A stretch of DNA of 41,154 nt, taken from positions 1 through 41,154 of IMG/VR virus record IMGVR_UViG_3300035210_000088. The stretch is one strand, 5' to 3'. Positions within the stretch are counted from its first letter, which is position 1; the number at the start of each line of letters is the position of its first letter. The translations under genes were made by a program, and so were the position numbers. Shown here piece after piece: positions 15,601 through 41,154 of this stretch. This stretch comes from a virus. The notes below the pieces were generated by a model. It worked only from the letters and a program-made list of their open reading frames with translations, did not search any database and had not been told where the DNA came from.

Positions 15601-18332
15601 GCTACACGACACGCCAGCAGAAGGCTGTGGGTCAGGACACATACCTTGCCGTCAAGGGCGCCGATGCGGCGGGCGTTTCCGAGATTGCGGCCCTTGGTGC
15701 GTCCTACAAAGCCATCTACGGCGACGCCTATGCGACGGTCGGCAAGTTCCAAGACGCACTGGCCGCCCTCACCACAACTCTGACCGTAGAGCATGACGCC
15801 CTGCTCCGCACGTTCAACAAGGCGCAGAAAACCTCAGACCAAAACTACAACTCCCGCATCCTGACCGCGAACGGCAACACCGCCGGCGCCGCGCTCTACG
15901 CCAACGACAACGCCGCGGCGAACGAACTTCAGGCGCTGGCCGACACGTACGCCGCGGCGTTCGGCGCGGCCTACCTCGGCATGACCGAGTACACCGACGC
16001 GGTGCGGAAACTCACCGCCGTCCTGACGCTGGAACGCGCGGCCCTCGTTCTGTCCCAGGCCCAGGCGGCCCAGGCGACCGCGGAGACCGGTTTGACGGCG
16101 GCGCAGACGGCCGAGAAATCCGCCCGCGACGCCTACGTCAATGCGATCCAGGCCCACATCTCGACGCTGCAATCCAACACCGACGCGCTGGTGAGCGTGG
16201 CCAGCGGGCTGCATGCCTACATCCGCGGAATGGCGACCGGCGCAAACTCGCCGCTATCTCCAGAGGCCCAACTGATCGCGGCGAAGCAGGCGTTCGCGAC
16301 CGACGCTGCCGCGGCACAGAACGGCGACCAAGCGGCGGCAGGCCGGCTCGGCGGCGACAGCGACACCATGCTGGGCAAGGCGGCAGCCTACTACGGCAAG
16401 GCATCGTCGCAGTATGCCGAACTGTTCCAAGACACCAACACGCAACTGACGAAGGCCGAAGCCTACTACATCACCGAAGCGATGGTTTCGCAGCGGACGC
16501 TTGATGTCGAGACGGCAATCTGCAATCTGGCCAAGGACACCAATGTCAGCATCTCCGCGCTGAACGATGCGATCAAGCAGGCCGAACACGGCAACGACGC
16601 CGGGCTTCTGGCGCTTGAGAAGACGGTCGGCGCCACGTCGGCGCTTGACCTCGCCTCTCTTGAAGTGATTCGGTCCGTGATTGACTCGGGGCTTGGCGGA
16701 TCAATTGTTAGCCTGGATGCGCTGAAGCAGGTCACGCACGACACGGGCCTCGGCGACGTTGAAGCGATCAACGCCCTGATCGATCAGACCGAAAATTCCG
16801 GAAACGGCCTCGGCGAAGTCATGAAGGGCGTCGCCACGACGCTTGTAGACGCACAGAAAGACCCAACGTCGATCGGCGGCGTCAACGACAAGCTGCAAGC
16901 GATGATCGATGCCGCGGCGCTTGTGCAGACCCCCAACGACGCCACGCTGCACGGGATCATTGACGCCGTCACGGCTGGCGGGGCGGCCACGGGGGGCAGC
17001 CTCGAAACGCTGGCGGACAACTATCAGGCCCTTGTTGATGCGGCCCAGGCGACCTCTGGCAGCCTCACCAGCATGTCCGGCGCGGTGACTGCGGGCGCCG
17101 GCAGCGTGACCAGCATGTCCGGGGCGGTGTCCGGGGCGGGTGACAGCATCACGGGGCTGTCCGGGGCGGTGACCGCTTCCGGTGACGCTGTGACTGCGCT
17201 GTCCGGTGCGGTGTCCGGTAGCGCGGGCAGCCTCACCAGCATGTCGGGCGCCGTGACGGCGTCGGGCGGTGCCATCACGGGCCTGTCGGGCGCTGTGACG
17301 GCCAGCGGTGACAGTGTGTCGAAGATGGCCGACGCCGTATCCGGCAGCGCAACCAGCCTCTCTGGCCTGTCGGGGGCGGTGTCCGGCAGCTCTGACAGCG
17401 TGTCGAAGATGTCCGGCGCCGTCTCAAGTGGGGCGGACAGCGTGTCGGCGATGGCCAAGGCGTTGTCGGAGCAGGGGTCTCCGTCCGCCGCTATCGAAAC
17501 GATGAAGACGGCTATGGCGACGGCCATCTCAGACGGAACAGGGGGCACAACCAGCAGCATCCACGACCTGATGACCGCCTACAGCAACGGCCAAAAGGGC
17601 GTGGGGGACGCGATCTTGGCGCTGGCGAAGGCAATGGAGCTTACGGCGGTCGCCAAGAAGGAACTCGACGCGGTGTCTACGCCGACGCACACGGCGACCG
17701 TGGCGGCCGACTATCAATCCATGCTGGGTCGCGCTCCCGTCGGCGCGGAATCTGCCCCGTGGGTCGCGCAGTTGGACGCCGGGGCGACGAACGCAACGGT
17801 GCAGGCCAGCATCGCCCAGACCCCGGAATACCTCGTGCGGCAGGACTACCTGGCCCTGCTCAACCGGGCGCCCGACGCTGCAGGGATGAAGACCTGGACC
17901 GACGCCATGACGCAGAAGGGTTGGACCAACGCCATGGTCCAAGCCAGCATCAAGACCCTGCCCGAGTATAAATCTCTGCACGGCCTCGCCGCCGGCGGCT
18001 GGGTGAGCAACGGGGCGTGGAACGAAGACAGCGTCATCGCCATGACGGCGGGCGGCGCGGCGCAACCGCTGGCCGGGGGTGAGTATGTGGTGAGCGCCCC
18101 CGCGGCGGCGCAGTTCGCGGACATCCTCCCGGTGATCAATCGCGGCAGCTACAGCAGCAACGACAACTCGTCCCAGGCGGTGCTGGCCGAGCTGCGCGCG
18201 GTGCGGCTCGAACTGGCCGAGCTGCGGAAGACGACGGCGGCGGTGGGCGTGCACGTCGGCAACAAGGTCGCCGAGGGCACGGCGATCGCCGCCGGCGGAC
18301 AGGCCACCACAAGGCTGAGGGCGGCCCGATGA
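12639..18332 (+). CDS. tail tape measure protein
   Basis: 1,897 residues; at about 1.5 angstrom per residue this predicts a tail near 285 nm. Residues about 110-270 match the tape-measure N-terminal domain (RLGSATGSVEAASRAYDSL, LASGKLQGDELRSLLENMPQ). A lambda H C-terminal-like block follows (SGDMFADLFATTGGGWDKMWK, about 571-597). A glycine-zipper segment (about 725-800) could insert in membranes during DNA entry. Residues about 1474-1611 are tandem 14-residue repeats around SGAV. Two DUF4214-like motifs (DYQSMLGRAP, DYLALLNRAP; about 1690-1781) precede the 'GGEYVVSAP' tail and a terminal coiled coil. ATG 12639 overlaps the upstream TAA. Confidence 0.95.
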   Translation: MSGSATRTVAIRLTLEQADAVRRGLESIGRDGSAALRQIESASSSAGTSVTALAGVSDAAARTIGRLDGAFGGLGASALRASSGLSGAAAGMAALGAGAVASGVAIAKMGDAYTATMQRLGSATGSVEAASRAYDSLYQLSQKTGVAITESAGAFSRFAVAAKDIGATQSQVVDLVATIQKAGILSGGSAQETGAAVQQLGQALASGKLQGDELRSLLENMPQLAQKLAQELGVGIGQLREMGSEGKLTADTVFPALLRAGEKLNEEFDKLAPTMGRSFDILGSSMVSFGANLDKALGLSQAIAAAAQAAAGAVNSVRRYILPTDSEASATKSAAEVKAAEDLARNLRLEQRARVGGGHSDEVQMRTQHLSDDALMQRIAEQDRIIHDGYERRERTQAEFNARDDKEQAGADARKRDQQTAANAKTAEALILSLDKRAAAEKKYTDSIGKIQESRDAGAMSAGTAQHLAEIALAEKTQALTEKTEHAKTAAVRKGAEDRRAAYDEPYLDPTSGLLLGSDAEVKAAHQAKAAAAKWVSANESAQSDITKAAEREEEKRQRVAERSTDDIVRYSGDMFADLFATTGGGWDKMWKNMQTTAIATLARIVAEAAVRPIVTPIVGAFMGASGSASGSASSGSSMVTLGKDIYNAGKSLYSVYDNVASTGSFFGPETTGAINAWGSANLGTGAGMSAESIAAMSPESSFAAASYGSGEALGGTSLAGAASLAGAGIAGVSGGYMLGGMIGNAINPGHEDQTQVGSAAGALAGAAIGSIIPGIGTALGLFIGGLVGGAGGGALGSMFGPGAPHNGWGFHATADASGQIRSTDEHYNDVAKEKWTADMANMAKVNAFMAAHAIQASGESIVGGNNTGVAGQVDDFGNTAGAFKFSTTSDSASLKTVLDRVFASYSDLEDAVNASTNFDTLTASAPVVATIGSLDTAISQINTTFDAVTASAVKYGLSEDALNAARAKAIAATNAEADAVTTAYLASYTTRQQKAVGQDTYLAVKGADAAGVSEIAALGASYKAIYGDAYATVGKFQDALAALTTTLTVEHDALLRTFNKAQKTSDQNYNSRILTANGNTAGAALYANDNAAANELQALADTYAAAFGAAYLGMTEYTDAVRKLTAVLTLERAALVLSQAQAAQATAETGLTAAQTAEKSARDAYVNAIQAHISTLQSNTDALVSVASGLHAYIRGMATGANSPLSPEAQLIAAKQAFATDAAAAQNGDQAAAGRLGGDSDTMLGKAAAYYGKASSQYAELFQDTNTQLTKAEAYYITEAMVSQRTLDVETAICNLAKDTNVSISALNDAIKQAEHGNDAGLLALEKTVGATSALDLASLEVIRSVIDSGLGGSIVSLDALKQVTHDTGLGDVEAINALIDQTENSGNGLGEVMKGVATTLVDAQKDPTSIGGVNDKLQAMIDAAALVQTPNDATLHGIIDAVTAGGAATGGSLETLADNYQALVDAAQATSGSLTSMSGAVTAGAGSVTSMSGAVSGAGDSITGLSGAVTASGDAVTALSGAVSGSAGSLTSMSGAVTASGGAITGLSGAVTASGDSVSKMADAVSGSATSLSGLSGAVSGSSDSVSKMSGAVSSGADSVSAMAKALSEQGSPSAAIETMKTAMATAISDGTGGTTSSIHDLMTAYSNGQKGVGDAILALAKAMELTAVAKKELDAVSTPTHTATVAADYQSMLGRAPVGAESAPWVAQLDAGATNATVQASIAQTPEYLVRQDYLALLNRAPDAAGMKTWTDAMTQKGWTNAMVQASIKTLPEYKSLHGLAAGGWVSNGAWNEDSVIAMTAGGAAQPLAGGEYVVSAPAAAQFADILPVINRGSYSSNDNSSQAVLAELRAVRLELAELRKTTAAVGVHVGNKVAEGTAIAAGGQATTRLRAAR
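17059..17470 (+). repeat. tandem 42-bp / 14-residue repeats in tape measure
   Basis: About ten units with constant 14-residue period, consensus S-G-A-V-x-x-x-G-x-x-(V/I)-x-x-(L/M). Hydrophobic residues at positions 4, 11 and 14 form a heptad-like stripe, so each unit is two heptads of a weak coiled coil. Unit count may vary between relatives and tune tail length. Confidence 0.85.
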
Positions 18333-29651: not shown

Positions 29652-30162
29652 TTGCATTCTCCGCGATGCCGGCTGGCGTGATGCAATACCCAGATCCCGC
29701 AAGATTGCCGTCTTCGGTGGATAAGCCAGAGTGAAACTCGGCCAGCCCCTTGCGTGCCAGAGCGCGGACGGATCGCCGCACTTCATCGCGCGGTAGCCCG
29801 GTGTCACGCGAGATCGGCGCGAACGGCACGCACATTTCGCCGTTTGGCAGCGTGCGATCGGCTAGGTGGGACAGGCACGCGCGTTGCGCCGGGTTGAGCC
29901 TGACCTGGGTGACGGTTGAACCAGCCATTGCGCTGTTTTCAGGAAACTTCGCCTTGGAGATTTGGGCGGTGAGCAGGCTGCTGAGTGTCTTCCACGGATC
30001 CTGCTCCCACTTCGCCCCCTTGCACCCCGCCGCGTGCGGGAAGTCATGCAGCGCAAAGGACACTTGCTGAGGCCGGTTACAGCAGCGGCACCGGAGATAG
30101 TCCCCATCGAGTTTCCACCGATCTGCAAAGGCATTGAGCGGGTGTCGTTGGATCGTGTTCAT
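29638..30162 (-). CDS. zinc-finger plus winged-HTH regulator
   Basis: 174 residues; ATG overlaps the ParB-like stop and follows GGAGG. An N-terminal metal site (C25, C28, H43, C47 in 'LRCRCCNRPQQVSFALHD' and beyond) resembles a small zinc finger. The C-terminal half 'LNPAQRACLSHLADRTLPNGEMCVPFAPISRDTGLPRDEVRRSVRALARKGLAEF' is a MarR-like winged helix ending in 'GSGYCITPAG'. Likely a DNA-binding regulator of the leftward operon or of DNA metabolism. Confidence 0.65.
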   Translation of the reverse strand: MNTIQRHPLNAFADRWKLDGDYLRCRCCNRPQQVSFALHDFPHAAGCKGAKWEQDPWKTLSSLLTAQISKAKFPENSAMAGSTVTQVRLNPAQRACLSHLADRTLPNGEMCVPFAPISRDTGLPRDEVRRSVRALARKGLAEFHSGLSTEDGNLAGSGYCITPAGIAENANGEG

Positions 30163-31817
30163 GCCGCCCTCCGCGGGCCGGGGGCGCCGAATGCCGCCGC
30201 GGCGGGTCGCCAGTCGGGCAGCTTGCCGGCGAGCTGCGCGCGCAGTTCGGTCACCTTCGCCACCGGCTTGATCCCGGCGGATGCTGCCGCCTCGCGCAGC
30301 ACCGCGGCGGAGCAGGTTGCCAGGAAGTCCGGGGTGTCGAAGCGGCCGAGGTTGGCGCTGGCGTCCACGAAGCGGCCGATCCACTCGGCGACCTGGCCGG
30401 CGTCCTTCCGGTAGCCGTTCCGTTCGACGTCGGGCGTGGCGCAGGACAGGCAGCGGGCCAGCGTCTCGGCGACCACCTCTTCGATGTTCGCCACGCTCAC
30501 GTCGTTGTCGAGTGCGTCGCCGGCAGGGTTCACCAGATAGGGCGCCAGGCCGTCAAGGGTGGGGCCGGCAACCGCGTCTTCCGGTTCCTCGGCGCCGCGC
30601 ACCGTGACGTTCGGTGCCGATGTCAGGAGCAGAACCAACAGCGGGGCGAGTTCGCGTGCCGGGGGGCGCGTGGTGGCGTTGCGGAGGCTGGCGCGGAGGG
30701 CGTCGGTCTTCATGGCGGCGATGATCGCTTCGCCGGCCTTGGTGATGCCGAGGGGCTTGGGGGCTGCGGCGCGGGCTGCGAGTTCCGCGTCCTCCCTGGC
30801 ATCGATCTCGTCATCGGTCATGTCGATGTCGGGATCGTCTTCGGACGGTTCCTCCGGGGTGCTGGCGGCGGAGGCTGGCTTGCCGACCTTCGGGACGTTG
30901 TAGACGTAGCCTCTCACGTCGCCGAAATTGTGGCCTTCAAGGATCTCCCACACCACGATGCGGCCGCGCTTCGGCTTGGTTGGATCGCCCGACCATTCGC
31001 GCTCGGCGCCGGGCGGGTCCTTCACCATGCCTGTCTTGGTGGTCTCAGCGAGCCGATAGGTCACGCCCTTCGGCGGGTGCTTGATCCGCTCCTCCAGCGC
31101 CGCGCGCTGCGCCTGCATGAAGCCGGCACGATCCCGCGTGTAGCTCTCCTGCTCATCAGCGGGCGCGAACAGGTCTTCCTCGAAGTCGAGACCCGACGTG
31201 GCGATGTCGAAGATGGCGCGGCTGGCCGGCACCGTCTTGTCCGTGCATGCCTCCCGCATGCGCCACCAGTCGATGTGGCTCCCGTGGTTGGCGGTCTTCA
31301 GCGCCTCCGCCTGACGCTCGGGCGGAGCCATGGCGACGACGGCGAGTTCGTCGTCATCGGGCCACTCTCCGACCTCAAGCGCCGCCAGGACGTCGGGATG
31401 CAGGCGGGAGAGGCGGTCCAGGCGTTTGCCGCTGCGCTCTGTCATGCCGAGGGCGGCGGAGGCGCCGGGCAGGGTGTAGCCTTGCTCCTGCAGCCGCTTC
31501 ATCGCGCGCCACTGGTCAAGCGGCGCCATGGCGGCCCGAACCATGTTGGCAGCGCTCGCCGCGGCGGTGGTCCAGCCGGCCTCCGCCGCAACGGCGAACG
31601 CGGCCGGGATCTCGGAGAGGCCGGCGCGGCTGGCGGCACGCAGGCGCCGGGCGCCGTCAACCAGCCGGTAGCGGTCGCCGATCGGCTGCACGAGGATGGG
31701 TTGCAGCACGCCGAGCGCGGTGATGGAGCGGGCCAGCGCCTGATCGTCGCTGTCGGAGGCGGCGATCCGGCGCACGTTCTCCGCCGGCTGATCTATGAGA
31801 GAGATTGAGAGGTTCAT
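30159..31817 (-). CDS. ParB/Srx-fold domain DNA-binding protein
   Basis: 552 residues. The N-terminus has ParB boxes: 'LARSITALGVLQPILVQP' (about 28-45) and 'YRLVDGARRLRAASRAGLSEIPA' (about 50-72), where the usual GERR CTPase motif reads DGARR. A HTH region follows (about 92-140). The large C-terminal part is unique, with an acidic stretch (about 325-350) and a final SAP-like helix. No parA neighbour exists, so a role in transcription or DNA protection is as likely as partition. ATG 31817 has no clear SD. Confidence 0.75.
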   Translation of the reverse strand: MNLSISLIDQPAENVRRIAASDSDDQALARSITALGVLQPILVQPIGDRYRLVDGARRLRAASRAGLSEIPAAFAVAAEAGWTTAAASAANMVRAAMAPLDQWRAMKRLQEQGYTLPGASAALGMTERSGKRLDRLSRLHPDVLAALEVGEWPDDDELAVVAMAPPERQAEALKTANHGSHIDWWRMREACTDKTVPASRAIFDIATSGLDFEEDLFAPADEQESYTRDRAGFMQAQRAALEERIKHPPKGVTYRLAETTKTGMVKDPPGAEREWSGDPTKPKRGRIVVWEILEGHNFGDVRGYVYNVPKVGKPASAASTPEEPSEDDPDIDMTDDEIDAREDAELAARAAAPKPLGITKAGEAIIAAMKTDALRASLRNATTRPPARELAPLLVLLLTSAPNVTVRGAEEPEDAVAGPTLDGLAPYLVNPAGDALDNDVSVANIEEVVAETLARCLSCATPDVERNGYRKDAGQVAEWIGRFVDASANLGRFDTPDFLATCSAAVLREAAASAGIKPVAKVTELRAQLAGKLPDWRPAAAAFGAPGPRRAA

Positions 31818-31833
31818 GTGTGGGTCTTGGACT

Positions 31834-32091
31834 CTACTGACGGCATGTGAACTGAAGCGCCTTCCGAACCGGGGCGGCGCGCTCTCGGGCGAGGAACGGC
31901 CAGCCGTGTTGGCGGGCGTGGGAGATGGAGCACCAGGCGCATTCGTCGGCGCCGTTCGCCGTCTGGCGGAGCGCAATGACCGCCTCCGGGCCGTCGCACG
32001 CGGCGCCGCAGGTCCGGCAGTGCATGTCGGCAAGCCGAACCGCCTGTGCGGTGGCCGGGGCGATCAGGTGGGTGGCGCTGGTGCGGCGCAT
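31834..32091 (-). CDS. Cys-rich zinc-binding small protein
   Basis: 85 residues from ATG 32091. CRTCGAAC and CAWC (residues about 25-32 and 51-54) plus 'HARQHGWPF' make a treble-clef-like zinc site. Similar short Cys4 proteins are frequent in alphaproteobacterial phage operons. It starts four bases after the upstream stop and sits before the ParB-like gene. Function unknown. Confidence 0.6.
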   Translation of the reverse strand: MRRTSATHLIAPATAQAVRLADMHCRTCGAACDGPEAVIALRQTANGADECAWCSISHARQHGWPFLARERAAPVRKALQFTCRQ

Positions 32092-37966: not shown

Positions 37967-38391
37967 GCCGTTTCGCAGCCGTGTGCGCGCACGCTGCCCT
38001 TCGGGTTGAGCGAGGCGAAATCACCTATGCCGAGGCGCTGCATGCGCTGGTTTGGCGGGAGCGGTTTCAAAGAGACCGGATTGATGCGGTCGATACCCGC
38101 ACGCCTGAGCAACAGATTGCTGATGACGTCTTCATCCAGGCGCATTTTCTCGACGAATGGTGCGCCCGCGCGGACGACGCGCGGCTCAGGGCCAAAGGTC
38201 GTGCCCGGGCGGCGATCGTGCCGCTGCTGGGGGTTCGGGCGCCGTCGGCCGACTTGCTCGATGCGGCACGTTCGGCGGCCGGCAAGGCAGTGCTCACTGA
38301 TGACGAGATGGTGCGCCTGGTCGAAACGGAAGTGTGGTGGCTGCTGCGGCGCGAGCGCCGGGCGCAGCGGTCGGCGAGGGCATCGGCATGA
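37963..38391 (+). CDS. hypothetical protein before helicase
   Basis: 142 residues from GTG 37963. All-helical; central 'DVFIQAHFLDEWCARADDARLRAKGRARAAIVPLLGVRAPSADLLDAARSAAGKAVLTDDEMVRLVETEVWWLLRRERR'. Adjacent and coupled to the ATPase (ATGA overlap), so it may be a loader or cofactor of the replication ATPase, which is inference from position only. Confidence 0.55.
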   Translation: MSRFAAVCAHAALRVERGEITYAEALHALVWRERFQRDRIDAVDTRTPEQQIADDVFIQAHFLDEWCARADDARLRAKGRARAAIVPLLGVRAPSADLLDAARSAAGKAVLTDDEMVRLVETEVWWLLRRERRAQRSARASA

Positions 38392-40235
38392 GCAACGTTC
38401 TGTCGCTGTACGACAGTGGGCGGGCGCCCAAGCGCGGCGACCTGCCGCCGGCCCCGCCCGGAGATGGTCCGCCGGTGGCATGCGACCCGTGGGCAGAATG
38501 CCCGTTCGTTCCGCTCGGCAAGGCCAGTGGCAAGTTCTGGTTCTTCGATGCAGGCGGTGATCTGGTCGGGTTGCCGGCACAGGCAATGGGCCAATGGGCG
38601 TCGCTGTTGGAACTGTGCGGCGGACGCCAGCAATGGCTGGTCGATGCCTATCCGGCCTATGACCGTGAAGGGGCGCCGCTCAACTGGTTCAACCAGAAGC
38701 ACGCGTGCGCCGGGATCATGGCGCGCAGTGGATCGCTGCCGAAATTCGACCCGACAGAACCGCGCCGCCGGCACGGGTTGTGGGAGGTTCCGGGCGGATG
38801 GGCCTTGCACCTTGGCCATCGTGTGCTGTGGCATGTGGGCGATACCGTCGAGCGCCGCGCGGGCTTTCGTGAAGCCGGGGCGTTGTGGCCCGACCTTCCG
38901 CCACGCCCCGCGCCCCCGGATCCTGAGGATTGCGCGACCGCGGCGGATGGCCAGCGGCTCGAAGCGTTGATCGCGTCCTGGGCCTGGGAGATGCCGACGG
39001 CGGCGGGTGTGCTGCTCGGCCTCACGGCGGTTGGCATGATGGGGGCGCTGGCGCCGTGGCGCGCACACGGCATGTTGGTCGGTCCGGCCGGGTGCGGCAA
39101 GTCAACGCTGCTGCGGATGGTGGCCAATCTCAACCCCTTCAGCCGCTACCTGAACGACTTCACCGAAGCCGGCTTGCGGCAGTCGCTGTCGGAGACGGCC
39201 GCGGCGATGGTTCTTGATGAGGCCGAGGGCGACGGCGAAGGCGATCGGGCGCTGAACCGGGTCATCGTCATGCTGCGCAAGGCGAGCGGCCAGGATGGCG
39301 TGAAGTCGATCAAGGGTGGATCGGACCATGAGGCGCGCACGTTCTCGGTGACGGCGTCCGCCATTCTTGGCACGACGCTGCCGCCGCCGCTCACGCCCCA
39401 GGACGAGAGCCGCATCACGACCCTGGCGCTGCGCCCGCTGGCGACGGCGGCCGATGGCGGCAGCATGGACATCGCGGCGATCGAGGCCGAGGTCGCGGCC
39501 ATGGGCCTCGGCGTGTGGGGCAGGGTGGTGCATCAGGTTGAGCGGGTGCGTGCGCTGTTCCGTCTGCTGCGCCAGCGGCTGCTGGATCGTGGCTGCTCGC
39601 CACGCGTGGCCGACCAGCTCGGCGTGATCGCCGCGGCGCGCTGGGTGCTGGTGCACGATGCGGTCGATGATCCGGCAAGCACGAGTCCGGAGGATGATGC
39701 CGACGCGCCGCTTGCAGTGGTCGCGGCGCTGATCGTATCCGAGGATGATGCGCTGGGCGACAGTGCGGGCAACCAGGCGCTTCAACGCCTGCTGTCATGG
39801 CCGGTCGATATGCAGGGCAACAAGCTCACGATCGGGCAGGCGCTGCGTCGCATGGTGACGGCGTCGGCCACGCTGAGACGGGTGCCGGAGGATGCGTCGT
39901 CGTTGGACGCTCAGGAGGAAAGGCGATCGGCTGTCGGCGTCTACGCGGAGATGTCGCAGCTGCTGGAGGCGCACGGTCTCAAGCTAGGAACGCATCCGCT
40001 GCGTGCTGCTCCTGGCGCCCCCGCACCCCCCACGGGTCTTTACGTGGTCGTTGGCTCGCACCCACGGCTCTTGCGAGCCTACGACGGGACGATCTGGTCA
40101 GGTCAGCGATGGGGCGTGGCACTGGCCGGGCTTCCGGGGGCTAAGAGTTCACGAGAGGCGTCACGCGCACAGATAGGTGGTGGTCAGTCGCGGTGCTGCT
40201 GGATACCCGCGACCACATTGCGCGATCTGACATAG
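38388..40235 (+). CDS. replication AAA ATPase / helicase (DUF927 or primase-helicase-like)
   Basis: 615 residues, ATG overlapping the previous stop, SD GAGGG. N-terminal half (about 30-190) has Trp/Gly-rich segments (GKFWFFDAGGDLVGL, LNWFNQKHACAGIM) like the accessory domain of phage DUF927 proteins. The ATPase core has Walker A GPAGCGKS (232-239), Walker B MVLDEAE (274-280) and a sensor-like 'SVTASAILGTTLPPPL' with a following Arg. No primase active site is evident. It lies directly before the iteron array, supporting a role in replication start. Confidence 0.75.
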   Translation: MSNVLSLYDSGRAPKRGDLPPAPPGDGPPVACDPWAECPFVPLGKASGKFWFFDAGGDLVGLPAQAMGQWASLLELCGGRQQWLVDAYPAYDREGAPLNWFNQKHACAGIMARSGSLPKFDPTEPRRRHGLWEVPGGWALHLGHRVLWHVGDTVERRAGFREAGALWPDLPPRPAPPDPEDCATAADGQRLEALIASWAWEMPTAAGVLLGLTAVGMMGALAPWRAHGMLVGPAGCGKSTLLRMVANLNPFSRYLNDFTEAGLRQSLSETAAAMVLDEAEGDGEGDRALNRVIVMLRKASGQDGVKSIKGGSDHEARTFSVTASAILGTTLPPPLTPQDESRITTLALRPLATAADGGSMDIAAIEAEVAAMGLGVWGRVVHQVERVRALFRLLRQRLLDRGCSPRVADQLGVIAAARWVLVHDAVDDPASTSPEDDADAPLAVVAALIVSEDDALGDSAGNQALQRLLSWPVDMQGNKLTIGQALRRMVTASATLRRVPEDASSLDAQEERRSAVGVYAEMSQLLEAHGLKLGTHPLRAAPGAPAPPTGLYVVVGSHPRLLRAYDGTIWSGQRWGVALAGLPGAKSSREASRAQIGGGQSRCCWIPATTLRDLT

Positions 40236-40241
40236 TGGTTT

Positions 40242-40458
40242 GTGTCTTTTGTGTCTGACATGTGTCTGACATAACGCACTGAAAATGCTCAATAAGACAC
40301 ACAGACACAATAGACACGGGGTTTCCTTATGTGCGTGCGTATGTGCGGGCGCATGTGTGAGCCATTTGGGTGTGTCTTTTGTGTCTTTTGTGTCTAATCC
40401 AATGTTATCAAAAGGATAGGTAAGACACATGCAGAGACACGCAAGACACATTAGACAC
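40242..40458. repeat. double symmetric GTGTCT iteron array, candidate origin
   Basis: 13 copies of GTGTCT/AGACAC. Module 1: forward at 40242, 40251, 40262, inverted at 40295, 40303, 40312. Module 2: forward at 40372, 40381, 40390, inverted at 40423, 40435, 40444, 40453. Repeat spacing is mostly 9 bases; both modules have a 27-base gap between forward and inverted sets. Less GC-rich than the surroundings. Binding target of an initiator or regulator. Confidence 0.75.
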
Positions 40459-41079
40459 CATGACGTTGGCCAAACAATTCGGCTTGACGACTCGGTAACA
40501 ACCTTGCGAGTCCTGGCATCAGACGTTGACTCGCAAGGTGCCCACGGCACCCCGAGTGCGGGAGCCTACCAATCGAGGCCGGCGACCTTCTGGAACGTCG
40601 CCAAGATCAAGCCGGGCTGGGAGCAGGAGCTTCCTGGATACCTCGGCCCCAAGGGCTTCCCGACCTTCTCCCCGACGCTGCTGGCGCGAAACACGAAGCA
40701 CCATCTGGTGCGGGCGCCGCTGTTCGTCGGCTACCTGTTCGTTCGCTTCGACGCGCGCATGCCGGGATGGCACGTCGTTACCCGTGCGGTCGGCGTGTCC
40801 TACCTGCTTCGCGGGGCAGACGGTCTCCCGCAGCCCGTGCCAGAACGTGTGATGAAGCAGTTGCTGGCCCAGCCGGAGATCACTGCCCCTGGGGTGCTGG
40901 TGTCGGACAAGGCAGATCCCGCAGTTGGCGCGGGCATTCGCGTCTGCACGGGGCCGTTCACTTCGTTCGTCGGGTCGGTGGTGCGGATGGTGGCCAAGGA
41001 CAGAGTGGCCGTGCTGCTGACCATCTTCGACCGTTCCGCTCCGATGGAACTGCCCATCTCCGCGGTCGAATTGGTCTGA
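40429..41079 (+). CDS. phage NusG-like transcription elongation / antitermination factor
   Basis: 216 residues. The NGN domain (about 54-148: 'FWNVAKIKPGWEQEL', 'RAPLFVGYLFVRFD', 'WHVVTRAVGVSYLLR') binds the RNA polymerase clamp; the KOW domain (about 166-216: 'GAGIRVCTGPFTSFVGSVVRM', 'VAVLLTIFDRSAPMELPISAVEL') is complete, as in NusG/RfaH. The first 53 residues are an extension encoded by iterons and an inverted repeat. ATG 40429 is the only in-frame ATG; TTG 40503 is the alternative. As the last early gene before terminase it may let polymerase pass late hairpins. Confidence 0.9.
   Translation: MQRHARHIRHHDVGQTIRLDDSVTTLRVLASDVDSQGAHGTPSAGAYQSRPATFWNVAKIKPGWEQELPGYLGPKGFPTFSPTLLARNTKHHLVRAPLFVGYLFVRFDARMPGWHVVTRAVGVSYLLRGADGLPQPVPERVMKQLLAQPEITAPGVLVSDKADPAVGAGIRVCTGPFTSFVGSVVRMVAKDRVAVLLTIFDRSAPMELPISAVELV
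40489..40539. promoter_or_regulatory. GANTC cluster and 12-bp inverted repeat
   Basis: GACTC (40489), GAGTC (40508) and GACTC (40528) lie within 44 bases; the last two end or begin the arms of a perfect inverted repeat ACCTTGCGAGTC/GACTCGCAAGGT (40501-40512, 40528-40539; 15-base loop). TTGACG (40484-40489) overlaps the first site. This suggests a CcrM/GcrA-sensitive site inside the 5' part of the NusG-like gene. Confidence 0.45.
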
Positions 41080-41143
41080 TGGCGGCCGGGGTGACCCTGC
41101 CACCCCCCATGAGTGGGTCCTTCCGGAGCCCCAGGACTATACG

Positions 41144-41154
41144 GGCGGCAAGGT
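41144..41154. repeat. terminal direct repeat, right copy
   Basis: GGCGGCAAGGT, identical to bases 1-11. The 64 bases before it (41080-41143) hold no gene but two small stems: GGGGTG/CACCCC just after the NusG-like stop and GTCCT/AGGAC near 41118-41136. This is the non-coding junction where cos would lie. Confidence 0.6.

Follow-up and report, generated by a model that had tools for sequence, protein, structure and literature searches.

A mirrored hexamer array directly 3' of a predicted helicase gene is a probable replication origin of a temperate phage

The window analysed here is a 41,154-nucleotide stretch of viral DNA (IMG/VR record IMGVR_UViG_3300035210_000088, positions 1 to 41,154). 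It codes for terminase, portal, protease/capsid, tape-measure and endolysin proteins and for an integrase, a CI-like repressor, a Cro-like protein and a ParB-like protein, and this set of genes identifies it as a temperate tailed phage. Thirteen exact GTGTCT/AGACAC hexamers are located between positions 40242 and 40458, while the rest of the 41 kb holds just 10 more. The first site lies 6 bp behind the stop codon of the predicted helicase gene P0002 and the other end of the array meets the start of a NusG-like gene, P0001. The features of the locus are as follows.

38334..40235, plus strand: P0002, predicted AAA+ replicative helicase of 633 aa and proposed initiator (PHROG phrog_21086, 6.9e-100)
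39903..40232, plus strand: C-terminal part of P0002 (residues 524-633), putative iteron-recognition domain according to the covariation of word and identity
40242..40267, plus strand: outer-left triplet, three GTGTCT, steps 9 and 11
40268..40294, no strand: left 27-bp spacer, GC 0.37
40295..40317, minus strand: inner-left triplet, three AGACAC, steps 8 and 9
40318..40371, no strand: central 54-bp spacer, GC 0.57; purines and pyrimidines alternate over 20 nt at 40328-40347
40372..40395, plus strand: inner-right triplet, three GTGTCT, steps 9 and 9
40396..40422, no strand: right 27-bp spacer, GC 0.30, candidate DNA-unwinding element (in 15 loci AT content is highest in the distal spacer)
40423..40458, minus strand: outer-right quartet, four AGACAC, steps 12, 9 and 9
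40429..41079, plus strand: P0001, NusG-like gene (PF02357 1.4e-9, phrog_6386 2e-17), an adjacent gene, presumably outside the origin

Chance was rejected as the source of the repeats, as none of 5,000 first-order Markov sequences modelled on the same 380 bp contained more than 4 hexamers against the 13 observed, and shuffle tests in relatives agree. Read outward from the centre, the steps between sites are 9 8 | 11 9 on one side and 9 9 | 12 9 9 on the other (bars denote the change of strand), and the distance across the change of strand, termed the flip, is 33 bp on both sides. A previous sequence-only reading had described these 13 hexamers and their strands, a same-strand spacing of mostly 9 bases, two 27-base gaps (40268-40294 and 40396-40422), an offset of 130 bases between modules (40242 to 40372) and a position between a replication ATPase (P0002, upstream) and the NusG-like gene (P0001, downstream), and all of these were borne out. 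Its view of the array as two copies of a symmetric module was right about the sites and gaps but not about a duplication: relatives show one structure mirrored about its centre, since the outer and inner steps run in mirrored order on both sides. No second GTGTCT cluster was found in the 41-kb window; the next best cluster with one mismatch allowed counts 6 sites and falls within the tape-measure gene. That gene also carries eight copies of CGGACA (17074-17439) with spacings that are multiples of 6, probably a coding repeat.

Subsequently, we collected relatives of the P0002 helicase. Annotated ones were identified by tblastn in Synechococcus phage MinM1, in 40-kb plasmids of Phaeobacter and Leisingera, in linear plasmids of Arsenophonus that encode a protelomerase and in human gut phages, and further ones by a profile search of whole genomes, giving 73 helicase loci with 68 distinct proteins. 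An IMG/VR search with P0002, P0001 and the MinM1 helicase revealed no close relatives. For each locus the most clustered both-strand hexamer was determined de novo, no word being supplied, and compared with 100 dinucleotide shuffles per region. A cluster beating 100/100 shuffles was present in the 3' flank of 32 of the 68 distinct relatives, in the 5' flank of 2/68 and in the coding region of none (0/68). The 3' flank had no significant exact-hexamer cluster in the other 36/68; in two of the loci the array lies farther from the helicase gene (L008, L012), in one it lies upstream (L018), and in some of the remaining ones no array was found. Degenerate words or prophage decay may explain other cases, and some may simply have no array. 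The clustered word differs between relatives: GTGTCT in the window, TGTGAG in MinM1, CCTAAC in L029, CGTTCC in L047, CGTCCC in L051, and AGAACC, TGTAAT, TGTTAG, CGTTAC, GGTTAC, GTTCCA and others elsewhere. The helicase-array unit is also carried by autonomous replicons, namely the Phaeobacter and Leisingera 40-kb plasmids, in which the arrays are degenerate, and the Arsenophonus linear plasmids. The latter are 8-10 kb in size and encode, besides the protelomerase, a P0002-type helicase, and each carries a single mirrored array (L007:3175-3456; L013:2749-3050); the L007 and L013 plasmids would be minimal natural replicons.

The check proposed by the sequence-only reading, that relatives should keep spacing rather than sequence, came out positive, as a mirrored layout recurs with differing words. 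It consists of outer sites with 11-13 bp steps, a flip of 40-46 bp, inner sites with 8-9 bp steps, a centre of about 50-70 bp and the mirror image of the same, a typical arm reading 9 9 |42-44| 12 11 outward from the centre. A near-perfect mirror was found in L029 (CCTAAC [11,12,42,9,9,56,9,8,42,12,11]), and mirrored layouts with unrelated words occur also in L030, L047, L053, L055 and L004. Geometry was tabulated for loci passing the word-count test only, which gave 32 clean arms from 18 loci. Inner steps in this set measure 8 or 9 (for runs selected at 7-10), and 36/48 outer steps fall at 11-13. Of the 31 arms with a flip between 15 and 75 bp, 22 have one of 40-46 bp (P=1.5e-14 against a uniform 15-75 distribution, for arms that are not fully independent); the helicases in this flip-distance set share a median identity of 27% and a maximum of 80%. 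With its 33-bp flips outside this commonest class, the window array is a compact variant of the family layout; in MinM1 the two flips are unequal, 31 and 42. Flip distances in 10.5-bp steps (33, 43, 54, 64) were considered and were not supported by the exceptions alone (R=0.30).

Base composition follows the layout as well. Over 15 loci mean GC is 0.30 in the distal spacer (the one farther from the helicase gene), 0.45 in the proximal spacer, 0.57 in the centre and 0.63 in the whole locus, the distal spacer being AT-rich with respect to both the locus (p=6e-5) and the proximal spacer (p=0.002). GGTTA-/GGGTT-like words seem to recur near the far end of the distal AT-rich spacers of L002, L004, L006, L020, L028, L030 and L055. 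The centre often contains a long alternating purine-pyrimidine run; in 9/25 loci it ranks among the top 1% when compared with all segments of equal length from that locus. Such alternating (CG/TG) centres, up to 26 nt, were observed in the window (40318-40371) and in L004, L005, L028, L029, L030, L053, L057 and L049.

The helicase gene itself belongs to a PHROG annotated as 'unknown function' (phrog_21086), and a later start at 38388 (MSNVL...) is also possible. An AlphaFold2 model of P0002, built on a 34-sequence alignment, reached a pLDDT of 83.6, and Foldseek matched it to MCM, NrS-1, AsfvPrimPol (ASFV PrimPol), the SaPI5 Rep (7ola) and the poxvirus protein MPXV E5. The model thus predicts an AAA+ replicative-helicase fold, which places P0002 in a class and not in a close family because the TM-scores are low (0.22-0.33 on query). 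A PDB sequence search gave P-loop matches only, and when the C-terminal domain was submitted on its own the fold search found no match, the single-sequence model being poor (pLDDT 60). In the region before P0002 (36357-38388) we recognised no CHC2/toprim primase gene, only small ORFs without PHROG match; L002 and L004 do have such a gene upstream of the helicase.

Across 31 loci, pairs of helicases with more similar C-termini (residues 524-633) tend to have more similar words (Spearman r 0.35; Mantel p 0.002, the lowest value that 500 permutations allow). The correlation is weaker for the N-terminal part (r=0.19, p=0.004), and with the identity of the AAA core none was found (r=0.05, p=0.21). 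We infer that the C-terminal domain of P0002 may recognise the iterons, and the covariation of the word with the helicase C-terminus fits published work in which SaPI Rep and Cch2 read their iterons through the C-terminus (PMC7581432).

On these grounds the array is very likely the replication origin of the phage, read by P0002 acting as a self-loading initiator helicase through its C-terminal domain. Several lines of evidence point to this: the cluster is tied to the 3' flank of the helicase gene, the mirrored spacing recurs as the word diverges, the spacers are AT-rich, the word tracks the helicase C-terminus, the predicted fold matches replicative AAA+ helicases, analogues exist in P4 crr and PICIs, and autonomous replicons carry the helicase-array unit. 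The C-terminal domain of P0002 would bind the GTGTCT sites, and at the facing groups of sites that flank an AT-rich spacer helicase rings would be seated with opposite orientations. Remodelling driven by ATP would then melt this spacer, the distal one (40396-40422) being the likeliest candidate, after which two helicases would depart in opposite directions. Binding by P0002, its stoichiometry, the choice of the melting spacer and the start of replication at the array are put forward as a model. Of the three roles that the sequence-only reading had offered, the origin is the best supported; the loop-forming operator and the partition site are disfavoured.

A parS-like partition site bound by the ParB-like protein is suggested by the fact that the phage encodes such a protein (30162-32033, minus strand), as do some array-bearing relatives such as MinM1. 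However, its gene is 8 kb distant from the array, ParB_N has no match in the whole records of the array-bearing L005, L007 and L013, and in 32 relatives the array stays beside the helicase gene, with the word following the helicase C-terminus, so that we consider a partition function highly improbable. We give equally little credence to a regulatory role of the array, as operator or promoter for the NusG-like gene and the late genes, perhaps via looping. The array does lie directly upstream of the NusG-like gene, likewise in MinM1, Leisingera, L020 and L051, but the Arsenophonus plasmids have arrays with no NusG-like gene beside them, phi3LM21 has nusG and lacks both the helicase relative and the array, and a scan for sigma-70-like promoters, which covers that promoter type only, found none. 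Finally, the array could be solely an accessory cis region with the real start of synthesis at a second site, since P4 carries crr plus a separate ori with the same iterons. This is improbable too, as the 41-kb window lacks a second GTGTCT cluster and the 8-10 kb linear plasmids carry one array each.

The neighbourhood on the far side of the array shows features of its own. The order helicase, array and NusG-like gene is shared by MinM1, Leisingera, L020 and L051; in L004, L006, L020 and L051 the array is followed by the NusG-like gene and then, where annotated (L004, L006), by terminase. This recurring order may couple late antitermination to the replication module. The N-terminal start of P0001 is uncertain, TTG at 40504 being also possible, and a perfect 12-bp inverted repeat (ACCTTGCGAGTC / GACTCGCAAGGT, 15-nt loop, 40501-40539) sits where the NusG-like frame starts. 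As the alternative TTG start falls in its stem, the repeat could regulate how the NusG-like gene is translated. An Rfam search of 38000-41154 returned nothing. The two ends of the contig (1-11 and 41144-41154) have 11 bp in common, GGCGGCAAGGT, which lie between the NusG-like gene and the terminase genes and could represent filled-in cohesive ends or an assembly overlap.

Assignment of the array to replication would provide phrog_21086 and its relatives, a large unannotated family, with a probable function and with a predicted site in cis. In addition, a drifting word on near-fixed geometry is a natural experiment on the co-evolution of initiator helicase and origin, and the geometry provides a rule to find such origins from sequence. 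More speculatively, and with somewhat more doubt than belief, these loci might form a widespread class of bacterial origins with fixed spacing, in which four arms mirrored around a functional GC-rich alternating centre (Z-DNA-prone or hairpin-forming) seat two pairs of helicase rings and the word drifts with the helicase C-terminus.

The earlier statement that no named phage origin has such a layout needs correcting, as P4 crr and the PICI/SaPI origins are close analogues. P4 alpha/crr shares the array immediately 3' of a helicase gene, the short sites on both strands and the two modules. Applied to crr, the same code gives steps of 7 and 11 and a flip of 41 bp around an AT-rich spacer in each module, the type I iterons of P4 as a whole having steps of 7-11 and flips of 41-43 bp, and type I iteron spacing 3' of the helicase gene, as in P4, was found in the family (steps 8-9, flip 40-46; window flip 33). 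In contrast, crr repeats 120 bp in tandem and lacks the four-arm mirror, the ori of P4 is a separate site, and alpha is a primase-helicase that hhalign aligns to P0002 over 34 columns at Walker A with a probability of 4.7%; by sequence comparison P0002 is not demonstrably a homologue of P4 alpha. In SaPI Rep and Cch2 the C-terminus recognises the iterons, which lie 3' in SaPIs (PMC7581432), and PICI origins consist of an AT-rich region flanked by two sets of iterons (PMC7581432, PMC6092414). A self-loading AAA+ helicase, an origin directly 3' of rep and a putative recognition of iterons by the C-terminus are the proposed likenesses to the PICI/SaPI Rep system, and the structures that P0002 matched by fold include that of SaPI5 Rep (7ola). 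Likewise, the array lies immediately 3' of the helicase gene (6 bp; 32/68 against 2/68 in the 5' flank), and AT-rich 27-bp spacers (GC 0.37 and 0.30) separate facing triplets. PICIs, however, are satellites without capsid and tail genes of their own, whereas the window has terminase, portal, protease/capsid, tape-measure and endolysin genes and the elements of the family are phage-plasmids, linear plasmids and temperate phages with a complete gene set. The present loci show four mirrored arms around an alternating, GC-rich centre. SV40 T-antigen and papillomavirus E1 are hexameric AAA+ initiators on inverted short sites as well (an analogy made in PMC7581432), but their DNA-binding domain is N-terminal, and they are compared by analogy. 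The pRN1 origin resides in the non-coding region 3' of the primase-helicase gene for ORF904 (PMC4234260) and differs in being a stem-loop without iterons. By analogy, the array is best read as working like P4 alpha/crr and the PICI/SaPI rep-ori; the novelty lies in a layout of four mirrored arms that keeps a nearly constant spacing although the word drifts, and that occurs in temperate phages, in phage-plasmids and in linear plasmids with a protelomerase.
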